Source: Candidatus Saccharimonadota bacterium
Lineage (GTDB): Bacteria > Patescibacteriota > Saccharimonadia > Saccharimonadales > Saccharimonadaceae
Length of the DNA: 64,000 bases
Direction of reading: 5' to 3'
NCBI GenBank assembly: GCA_017431105.1
Contig: JAFRLS010000034.1
Coordinates: 1 to 64,000, forward strand
Of the stretch, positions 13,870-45,040 are shown one piece after another. The position numbers were made by a program, and so were the translations under genes. Under the pieces are notes generated by a model, which saw nothing but the letters and a program-made list of their open reading frames with translations, ran no database searches and had not been told where the DNA came from. Numbering within the stretch: the stretch's first letter is position 1; each line of letters begins with the position of its first letter.

Positions 13870-13871
13870 GA

Positions 13872-14213
13872 TAGTGAGCCTTCAATAAGCCGGGTTCTGT
13901 ACTATATATTATAATATATAGCTAGCGATCATCTATCTAGACACTACATTGCTATAGTGCTCAAGCGGTGAGCGTGCATCCCCGAGCAGGGGTTTAGTAG
14001 CACTCCTTGCAACAGGTAGGGTTTGCCGCCGCGCTGTATCGCTACTGCGCGCTGTGAGCTCTTACCTCACTCTTTTCACCCTTACCGGCTAGGCCGGCGG
14101 TATTGTCTCTGTGGTACTTTCCCTATCCTTACGGACGGTCGCTGTTAGCGATTACCTTGCTCTATGTTGCCCGGACTTTCCTCTTTATAAAAAAGCGATC
14201 GCCTTTTAGGCTC
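13872..14213 (-). ncRNA. rnpB: RNase P RNA, bacterial class
   Basis: This is the catalytic RNA that trims tRNA 5' ends. The minus strand contains GAGGAAAGTCCGGGC near the 5' side (about 14170-14184) and ACAGAACCCGGCTTAT near the 3' end, the two universal bacterial signatures. The ends GGAGCCT/AGGCTC can pair as P1. Length is about 340 nt. The 5' end is placed from the promoter, the 3' end from P1 and the terminator; each may be off by a few bases. Confidence 0.93.
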
Positions 14214-14219
14214 CTCGTG

Positions 14220-14249
14220 ATTATACCACGACATCGAGAATCTGGTCAA
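14220..14249 (-). promoter_or_regulatory. rnpB promoter inside the upstream gene's 3' end
   Basis: Minus-strand -35 TTGACC (14244-14249), 18-nt spacer, -10 TATAAT (14220-14225) with a TGG extension. All but the -10 box lies in the last codons of the RNase HI fusion gene. Confidence 0.7.
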
Positions 14250-15072
14250 TAGCGGCGTTGGCCTGCGAATCGGCCTCTGTATTAAGTTCCCGTGGAATAT
14301 GTGTAAATGATGCGTTTTCAAAATTTTCTAGAAGTTTTTGGATACCCTCATAAATAGGCATAATGTCCTGATTTTTAACCGTAAAAATACCATTAAGCTG
14401 GTTAACGACCATCAGGCTATCTGAGAAGAAGTGGACTGTTTTGAAGCCTAGATTGATGGCTTTTTCAACACCGTTTCGCATAGCCAAGTATTCGGCTACG
14501 CGTGAAGTAGCGAAGCCGATAAACTCGCCGCCTTTTTCGATGGTGGTACCGTCAACATCGATAACGTGGTAGCCAATACCGGCTGGGCCAGGGTTACCGC
14601 GCGATGCACCATCAACATAGATAGCCACTGCGCTAGCAGTATCGCGTGAGGCAACATGGCTAGTGACTTTGCCTTCGGTGATTTCGAGCACCGAAAGGCT
14701 GGCTTCATTAAGGCGTACGTTACTAGAGGTAAAATCTTTAACAAACTTGTAGCTAGTATATCTATCTCTAGGGGTTGGTTTAGTGTCGCCGCTAATACCG
14801 ATTTCATAAACTATATAGAGATTACTGAGACGACTAGAGCCCTCAAGTGCCAAAAAAGTAATTACATCTTTTATTTTAATAGAGCTAGCCACAAGACCTG
14901 TATAATCAGTAAGCGATCTAGCGATAGCTTCTTCTGGTTGTTCGCCGAATTCAATTTTACCAGTGGGAAGTTCCCAAAAAACCGGGGCCTCAGAACGACC
15001 ACGGCTACGCTTTAAAACGAGTACCCCATCCTCGTTTCTAATAATCCCAACTACGCGAATTCTTTGTTTCAT
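14221..15072 (-). CDS. Nudix-like domain fused to RNase HI
   Basis: With the ATG at 15072 the product is 283 residues. Residues 1-135 form a Nudix fold, but the Nudix box (38-60, GKIEFGEQPEEAIARSLTDY then TGL) has S, D and Y where the catalytic REUXEE glutamates belong, so hydrolase activity is doubtful. Residues 150-283 are RNase HI with YVDGASRGNPG, AEYLAMR, FSDSLMV and NTEADSQAN, so the four acidic catalytic residues (D, E, D, D) are present; it should cut RNA in RNA-DNA hybrids. I chose 15072 over an in-frame ATG at 15201 because AAGGTGGGC precedes it and the extra 43 codons overlap a structured leader. Confidence 0.82.
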   Translation of the reverse strand: MKQRIRVVGIIRNEDGVLVLKRSRGRSEAPVFWELPTGKIEFGEQPEEAIARSLTDYTGLVASSIKIKDVITFLALEGSSRLSNLYIVYEIGISGDTKPTPRDRYTSYKFVKDFTSSNVRLNEASLSVLEITEGKVTSHVASRDTASAVAIYVDGASRGNPGPAGIGYHVIDVDGTTIEKGGEFIGFATSRVAEYLAMRNGVEKAINLGFKTVHFFSDSLMVVNQLNGIFTVKNQDIMPIYEGIQKLLENFENASFTHIPRELNTEADSQANAAIDQILDVVV

Positions 15073-15219
15073 GCCCACCTTTTTGGTTACCCTATCGGCC
15101 TGTTTTCCCCGTAATATATACAAGGTGGGTAAAATCTTATGCGATACATCCGCAGATGTAAGCCACGAAATCCCTATAACATGATTATTCAGGAAAATCA
15201 TGCTGCCGATAGGGCTAAC
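15073..15219 (-). promoter_or_regulatory. Structured mRNA leader with possible SD-sequestering switch
   Basis: Transcription from the -10 box at 15223-15228 starts almost on a closing stem: GTTAGCCCTATCGGC (15205-15219) pairs with GCCGATAGGGTAAC (15086-15099), 14 bp with one bulged G. Inside are CATGATT/AATCATG and ACATC/GATGT hairpins. CCCACCTT (15122-15129), inside the closed domain, is fully complementary to AAGGTGGG (15074-15081), which holds the SD of the gene. The two pairings cannot easily coexist in one compact fold, so the leader could switch translation. I do not recognise a known riboswitch class. An alternative is that the region is simply coding from the ATG at 15201. Confidence 0.5.
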
Positions 15220-15222
15220 TTA

Positions 15223-15228
15223 ATTATA
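15223..15228 (-). promoter_or_regulatory. -10 box for the structured leader
   Basis: Extended -10 TGATATAAT on the minus strand (hexamer 15223-15228). No good -35 is present 17 nt upstream. Expected start is 15216-15219. Confidence 0.55.
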
Positions 15229-15237
15229 TCATAAGGA

Positions 15238-15339
15238 GGCATTAAATATATACTTTTAGAGCACACTCCGGGGCGTTACTTCGTACGCCTTCGGCGAGCG
15301 TCCAAGTCTATGGTCCTAAAAATATATATTTTTAATGCC
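15238..15339. repeat. 102-bp palindromic repeat with GC-rich core
   Basis: The arms GGCATTAAA... and ...TTTAATGCC form a long imperfect inverted repeat of A/T-rich sequence. It encloses a GC-rich core containing CGCCTTCGGCG. Positions 15293-15317 align with 40033-40057 in ileS at about 18 of 25 bases. It covers the intergenic space and the last codons of the downstream M50 protease gene (minus strand). Confidence 0.55.
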
Positions 15340-15976
15340 CCACCAATAGATAGAAGAAGTTAAGCACTGCCTGCATGCCGCTAACCATGATATTTGAGAA
15401 TGCGTTGCCGAAGAGGAAAATTAAGAGGTAGACGATGATGAAGCCGTAGCGTTCCATACTCATCATGAGAGCGCGAACCGCGTCCGAGGCGATAGCATAA
15501 AGTAGACGTGAACCATCCAGTGGTGGAATCGGAATAAGATTAAAAATCATAAAGCCGAGATTAATAAAAATTATTTCAACGAAGATAAAATATAATAATT
15601 CCCCGCTGGGTCTATAGAGGATACCAGAAAAATGGGCAATCAAGAATGCAACAAGAGCGAGGAGAAAATTAGTAAATGGGCCGGCAAGTGCAACGAGTGC
15701 CATACCCCATTCGCGCCATTTAAGGTTATGAGAATTGATTGGCACAGGCTTGGCACCACCAAAAACTGGGGCGCCTATAATATATAGCACGACTGGCACT
15801 ATAATGGACATAAAGGGGTCAATATGCTTAATGGGATTAAAAGTAAGACGTCCAGCTTCCTTAGCGGTGTTATCACCTAACCAATAAGCGACAATACCAT
15901 GGGCTAACTCATGTAAAATAACGGAGCCTACTACGATAATTAGTATAATTACAACTTTGCCGAAATTAATATCCAT
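15332..15976 (-). CDS. Site-2 protease family (M50) membrane metalloprotease
   Basis: The 214-residue protein has about six membrane helices. The zinc motif HELAHG (residues 22-27) lies in the first helix and the third ligand region NLIPIPPLDGSR near 145-156, placing it in the compact YwhC/FtsEX-type S2P branch without a PDZ domain. Such enzymes cut membrane-embedded substrates, often anti-sigma factors or signal peptides. Its ATG overlaps the stop of the upstream gene by one base (TAATG), so the two are coupled. The C terminus runs into a palindromic repeat. Confidence 0.88.
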   Translation of the reverse strand: MDINFGKVVIILIIVVGSVILHELAHGIVAYWLGDNTAKEAGRLTFNPIKHIDPFMSIIVPVVLYIIGAPVFGGAKPVPINSHNLKWREWGMALVALAGPFTNFLLALVAFLIAHFSGILYRPSGELLYFIFVEIIFINLGFMIFNLIPIPPLDGSRLLYAIASDAVRALMMSMERYGFIIVYLLIFLFGNAFSNIMVSGMQAVLNFFYLLVGH

Positions 15977-44588: not shown

Positions 44589-45040
44589 TAGGATCTTCTT
44601 CCCTTTTGCTCTTTCAAAATCTTTTCGAAATCTTCTAAGGTTTTGAATTCACGGAATACACTAGCAAAACGAACATAGGCCACCTCATTAACTTCAGCCA
44701 ATACGTCTAAAACTGCTTCACCAATTTGTTTACTGGTGATTTGGTCCGTACCGTAGCTATACAAAATATCTGATGCACGGTTTACGACCTCTTCAATTTC
44801 GAGTTCGGAACCAAAAAACTTACCAACGCTACGCTTAACAGCAAGGAGAAGCTTGTCGCGATCAAAAATTTCTTTATTGCCGCTGCGTTTGGTGACAGTG
44901 AGCTGTGGCATCTCGATACGTTCGTAAGTAGTGAATCTACGCCCATCAGTAGATTCTCGGCGCCGACGAATCATGGTGCCATCTACTGTCTCACGACTTT
45001 CCAAGACTTTGCTGTCACCAATGCGGAAGTTATATTCCAT
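44588..45040 (-). CDS. nrdR: NrdR-family repressor without zinc-ribbon cysteines
   Basis: NrdR represses ribonucleotide reductase genes by binding paired NrdR boxes when loaded with ATP/dATP. The 150-residue protein keeps the family frame: SKVLESRETVDGTMIRRRRE, RRFTTYERIE, and an intact ATP-cone (VTKRSGNKEIFDRDKLLLAV to VAYVRFASVFREFKTLEDF). The four cysteines of the N-terminal zinc ribbon are all missing (normally CPxC and CxxC; here EYNF and ESTDG), and no upstream extension can supply them because ftsZ ends 18 bases before. It therefore must bind DNA without zinc or work differently. Twin NrdR-like boxes at 56861-56909 show a regulon still exists. Confidence 0.88.
   Translation of the reverse strand: MEYNFRIGDSKVLESRETVDGTMIRRRRESTDGRRFTTYERIEMPQLTVTKRSGNKEIFDRDKLLLAVKRSVGKFFGSELEIEEVVNRASDILYSYGTDQITSKQIGEAVLDVLAEVNEVAYVRFASVFREFKTLEDFEKILKEQKGRRS

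Follow-up and report, generated by a model that had tools for sequence, protein, structure and literature searches.

A probable compact 6S RNA upstream of a Nudix-RNase HI gene in a Nanosyncoccus-like member of the Saccharibacteria

6S RNA is a rod-shaped RNA with a bubble that mimics an open promoter; its complex with the sigma holoenzyme is resolved by pRNA synthesis. Members of this family (SsrS, Rfam RF00013) are ~150-200 nt in length. The 6S RNA of Aquifex aeolicus, at ~160 nt, has been termed one of the shortest (PMC9130861). B. subtilis 6S-1 RNAs shortened to a bubble with two short arms remain able to complete the cycle of binding and release in vitro, and free full-length 6S-1 carries a small hairpin on the 3' side of the bubble, whereas a hairpin on the 5' side is weakly predicted and unconfirmed by probing (PMC8876501). 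In Actinobacteria, the 6S-like polymerase-binding RNA Ms1 was found via its conserved gene neighbourhood (PMC9130861). Translational riboswitches and protein-bound leaders are structured RNAs of another kind, directly 5' of a gene, to whose start region part of the RNA is complementary.

Here we describe an RNA on the minus strand of a stretch of 64,000 nucleotides from a Candidatus Saccharimonadota bacterium (hereafter, the window). It is very probably a compact, ~130-nt 6S RNA (ssrS) of a Nanosyncoccus-like Saccharibacterium, presumably sequestering the housekeeping RNA polymerase. Like established 6S RNAs, including Patescibacterial members of RF00013 that score above threshold, it is a single-copy RNA with its own promoter and a closing helix, and the 3' side of its bubble carries CCCACCT, the 5' side CCUGAAUA...UAGGGA; with the Patescibacterial 6S RNAs it also shares a terminal arm with a CCGUGG loop. 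In contrast to these RNAs it is shorter (also than that of A. aeolicus), has a very short terminal arm and a covarying hairpin on the 5' bubble side, and is not found directly by RF00013. The 3'-bubble hairpin of free 6S-1 is predicted here too, whereas the hairpin on the 5' side, in contrast to that of B. subtilis, shows compensatory changes. As the shortened 6S-1 is functional in vitro, a natural 6S RNA of ~130 nt is plausible. For Ms1, the likeness lies in the neighbourhood and in polymerase binding, which here would follow by analogy; Ms1 differs in that it binds core polymerase and has other neighbours (a HAD hydrolase), and no corresponding Rfam match is found at the present RNA. The riboswitch-like placement before a gene is likewise shared, but this RNA is separable from the gene and is kept without it.

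A literature search, with subscription papers mostly outside it, yielded no paper that treats 6S RNA together with either Saccharibacteria or the candidate phyla radiation, and the combination of 6S RNA and Patescibacteria gave a single match, on the signal recognition particle. 6S RNA itself is a known kind of RNA; what is new, as far as tested, is its compact form, the hairpin on the 5' bubble side and its occurrence in this lineage.

Structure, conservation and promoter of the RNA

The features of the locus are as follows:

15086-15219, minus strand: 6S-like RNA (ssrS), matched by the genus model R1 (161 bits at 15088-15223) and, as its sole match in the window, by the outgroup model R2; RF00013 matches in syntenic relatives
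15205-15219, minus strand: closing stem, 5' strand, GTT-A-GCCCTATCGGC, with a covarying 11-bp core
15086-15099, minus strand: closing stem, 3' strand, GCCGATAGGGTAAC; the equivalent strand in loci L120 and L122 is followed by TTTTTT
15180-15202, minus strand: 5'-bubble-side hairpin CATGAT/ATCATG with loop TTTCCTGAATA; compensatory changes in the genus, the loop being common to outgroup 6S RNAs
15127-15174, minus strand: upper arm, GGG (15174-15172) with CCC (15129-15127), an irregular stem and a terminal hairpin (15160-15145)
15107-15129, minus strand: 3' side of the central bubble, with the CCCACCTT motif (15129-15122) and a small hairpin CCTTGTA/TTACGGGG
15223-15231, minus strand: putative extended -10 of the RNA, TGATATAAT, with TATAAT at 15228-15223
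15074-15081, minus strand: AAGGTGGG beside the start codon; in 62 of 80 genus members a GGTGG is found no more than 20 nt from the start
14221-15072, minus strand: Nudix-RNase HI fusion gene (Pfam NUDIX, RNase_H, RVT_3), start at 15072, downstream of the RNA; same-genus orthologues

The two strands of the closing stem (15219-15205 and 15099-15086) form 14 bp with one bulged A and enclose 134 nt of the minus strand. This stem, proposed in a preliminary description of the DNA, exists in the sequence, is present in the MFE fold and covaries. A 186-nt stretch folds better than its dinucleotide shuffles (z = -3.19), with one of 200 shuffles folding as well, and the MFE fold has more branches than the classic 6S rod and carries the extra hairpin on the 5' bubble side.

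Orthologues of the Nudix-RNase HI gene occur in a genus of Saccharibacteria, of which Candidatus Nanosyncoccus alces is a named relative, and the RNA lies before this gene in nearly every member. In ~80 genomes of this Nanosyncoccus-like genus the RNA is almost invariant, except for the closing stem and the terminal hairpin. Covariation of the closing helix across related leaders, to which the preliminary description had pointed as a check, was strong: in the core of the stem, two-sided changes were found at 10 of 11 aligned pairs. For the structure as a whole (closing stem, 5'-bubble hairpin, upper arm and 3'-bubble hairpin), assessed in 33 aligned genus members, 93.9% of cells are paired and 17 pairs show two-sided changes; the 112 two-sided cells compare with a mean of 36.5 in shuffled alignments, none of 500 shuffles reaching as high, and with 8-24 in slid controls. 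The 5'-bubble hairpin is mostly invariant, and its variants TATGAT and CAAGAT, in place of CATGAT, are compensated. The 3'-bubble hairpin is paired in 98% of the genus and CCCACC is invariant, while the terminal hairpin of the upper arm covaries and outgroups share the layout GGGA-CCGTGG-CCCACC. The closing helix, large central bubble and terminal arm that make up the 6S architecture are thus all found here, with a covarying stem and terminal hairpin and invariant bubble motifs.

Ten genus genomes, including the nearly complete G036 and G066, have no detectable copy of the RNA. The gene is kept in G066, with TATAAT directly upstream of it. Another contig (C9, 6.4 kb) of the assembly from which the window derives carries a second 6S-like RNA with a Nudix/RNase HI gene (69% protein identity); this contig probably belongs to another species, the assembly being rated 7.69% contaminated.

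Just upstream of the RNA, at the foot of the closing stem, TATAAT is extended by a TG, which predicts a start near 15216; the earlier placement of the stem's 5' strand near the transcription start agrees with this. Of 79 genus members, 69 have TATAAT at the equivalent place and 70 have an extended -10. A simple scan for -35/-10 promoters and terminators found no site for the RNA. The predicted transcript runs from ~15216 to ~15086. With a conserved extended -10, persistence without the gene and variable spacing to the gene, the sequence comparisons point to an independent small RNA with its own promoter, the ends being predicted. Directly upstream of the RNA promoter, at 15238-15339, lies a dispersed repeat of ~100 bp with terminal inverted repeats (27 nt, 78%); it is MITE-like, and three similar copies are found elsewhere in the genome (contigs C41 and C36).

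Relationship to the 6S RNA family

Rfam searches of the whole window and of 15000-15340 found no family matching the RNA, the only match of the leader being an insignificant one on the plus strand (E 0.49). RF00013 gave no match on a short stretch of the window even at E 10, and no direct match in any genus member. The window RNA fails the RF00013 gathering score of 46.4 bits; relatives from the same order reach 22.9-43.9 bits, significant and sub-threshold. The best of these same-order matches are full length, with E 1e-8 to 1e-5 per genome. Full-length matches were found in the relatives G113, G127 and G091, and matches just upstream of RNase HI in G113, G119 and G127, as well as in two further relatives scanned directly, G114 (38.0 bits) and G124 (35.9 bits). 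In the Rfam alignments the consensus caCCCACCUgg is aligned to the CCCACCU of the relatives. An RF00013 match in G352 (L159), near tRNA-Ile and tRNA-Ala and unmatched by R1, was excluded for these two reasons.

R1, a covariance model built from genus members only, independently matches the RF00013 loci in G114, G124 and G127, and in G353 (L162), from the same family, the matches of RF00013 (31.8 bits) and R1 (43.7 bits) coincide. As R1 has no matches in the distant Patescibacterial 6S RNAs above threshold, an intermediate model, R2, was built from 13 non-genus relatives only. Among 60 same-order genomes from outside the genus, 49 have exactly one R2 match each, seven of the 49 having contributed to the model; R2 also matches 41 genus genomes at the R1 positions. 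Its sole match in the window, at 15080-15224, has a modest score (22.1 bits, E 0.04). In five distant Patescibacterial 6S RNAs R2 likewise matches the core, at the RF00013 positions; four of the five are above the Rfam cut-off. The core common to the order consists of TTTCCTGAATA, GGGA, the CCGTGG terminal loop and ACCCACCT, in that order. By these comparisons the genus RNA appears homologous to established 6S RNAs, transitively through the intermediates; RF00013 itself does not detect the genus members directly.

The failure of RF00013 on the genus version and the extra 5'-bubble hairpin would also fit a structured small RNA of 6S-like architecture that has another partner, either core RNA polymerase, as for actinobacterial Ms1, a structural relative of 6S RNA with a different target (PMC9130861), or some other protein. 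We consider this very unlikely, as RF00013 is the sole Rfam family to match the region below E 0.1 in syntenic relatives, and R1 and R2 connect these relatives to the genus with the bubble motifs kept.

The start-codon complement and the neighbouring gene

The gene downstream of the RNA was described at the outset as a Nudix/RNase HI fusion, and Pfam bears this out. It is directly followed by the RNase P RNA gene (13871-14214). CCCACCTT, inside the closed domain, is a perfect 8-base complement of AAGGTGGG outside it, as had been noticed, and AAGGTGGG is separated from the ATG at 15072 by 1 nt. The preliminary description took AAGGTGGG for the SD and read the RNA as a translational switch for Nudix/RNase HI, a riboswitch or protein-bound leader in which opening and closing of the domain lets CCCACCTT mask or free AAGGTGGG of the mRNA. 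Its view of the RNA as structured and non-coding, starting at a promoter and closed by a stem, is retained, the RNA being conserved and the stem covarying; the switch is not supported. In addition to the perfect complement, the proximity of GGTGG to the start codon and the adjacency of RNA and gene in most of the genus speak for such a cis-acting leader, but several observations make it highly improbable.

First, the motif is common to 6S RNAs of other families that lie 80-7030 nt from RNase HI, often beyond a tRNA gene. CCCACC is invariant in the genus, so that its pairing with the start region cannot covary, and variants on the start side (GAGTGGG, GGGTGGC, GGTAGG) are uncompensated. CCCACCT is most probably the conserved central-bubble motif of 6S RNA rather than an evolved anti-SD. 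Forcing the alternative pairing in the window costs 9 kcal/mol (-47.6 versus -56.6). Moreover, GGTGG is retained where the RNA is displaced (G040, G013, G024) and is absent in G041, where the RNA is adjacent.

Second, RNA and gene are separable. G069, from the same genus, has lost the Nudix/RNase HI gene but retains an intact RNA and promoter-like site, with the RNase P RNA immediately next. In the relatives L120 and L122 a run of six T comes after the closing stem, and the gene, ~190-240 nt further on, has its own promoter-like site beside the ATG. In the rest of the order, 43 of 44 same-contig cases have the RNA on the RNase HI strand and upstream of that gene, at the distances given above, often with tRNA-Pro(GGG) between them. 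A riboswitch would occupy an obligate position before the gene it regulates; here one genus member has the RNA without the gene, and up to 7 kb separates the two in the order. The gene loss, the promoter-like sites and the variable spacing point to a conserved neighbourhood of RNA and RNase HI rather than a leader. RNA, RNase HI and RNase P RNA occur together in several same-order genomes (L091, L092, L094), with tRNA-Pro(GGG) between. Six genus members have extra sequence between RNA and gene (L058, L064, L067, L068, L071, L179), which in G050 (L068) includes a promoter-like site, TATGATATAAT, before the gene.

As an SD, AAGGTGGG is not typical for the genome, as most other genes in the window have AAGG or GGAGG ~5-10 nt from the start. 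The 16S tail is GGAUCACCUCC, and the start-proximal GGTGG could be a match to it, or reflect a minor cis effect. When 16S 3' ends were sought for a shifted-register anti-SD match in the genomes examined, no 16S was found and the exact 3'-end pattern was absent. GGTGG or GTGGG sits beside the start codon in most genus members, and another gene in the window (44591-45040, minus strand) likewise has GTGGGCGAAT before its ATG.

Finally, an N-terminal extension of Nudix-RNase HI encoded by this region, with its start at 15201, can be dismissed with near certainty: the frame is open in the window and in five other genus members, but in-frame stops interrupt it within the RNA or leader in 67 of 73 genus members, in agreement with the earlier view that the open reading is accidental, the RNA-to-ATG distances are spread over all three frames (23/18/32), and conservation tracks base pairing.

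Proposed action and significance

As a 6S RNA, the transcript would be made from its own extended -10 and end at, or be trimmed back to, the closing stem. Its fold would comprise the closing helix, a short terminal arm and, between them, a large internal bubble mimicking melted promoter DNA; the RNA would bind the housekeeping sigma-RNA polymerase holoenzyme, which would thereby be held inactive. The polymerase would be released by transcribing a short pRNA from the 5' side of the bubble, around TTTCCTGAATA; the loop in the 5'-bubble hairpin is the presumed template region. Polymerase binding, inhibition, pRNA release and abundance are here expected by analogy with the 6S family. It is conceivable, though we think it unlikely, that a genus-specific wiring has been added, in which the start-codon GGTGGG of read-through transcripts would pair with CCCACC, making mature 6S RNA production and Nudix/RNase HI translation mutually exclusive, with the conserved 5'-bubble hairpin as a new layer of control over polymerase capture or the initiation of the pRNA.

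6S RNA restrains transcription globally, and an order-wide 6S orthologue in Saccharibacteria, whose genomes in our set are mostly 0.5-1.2 Mb, would mean that these reduced epibionts have kept it. The Rfam model misses the versions in the genus, so that annotation based on it would record no 6S RNA in such genomes. The compact form, with its ~130 nt, very short upper arm and 5'-bubble hairpin, would offer a natural test of the minimal open-promoter mimic, and what was supposed to be an orphan riboswitch would become a gene with a testable product.
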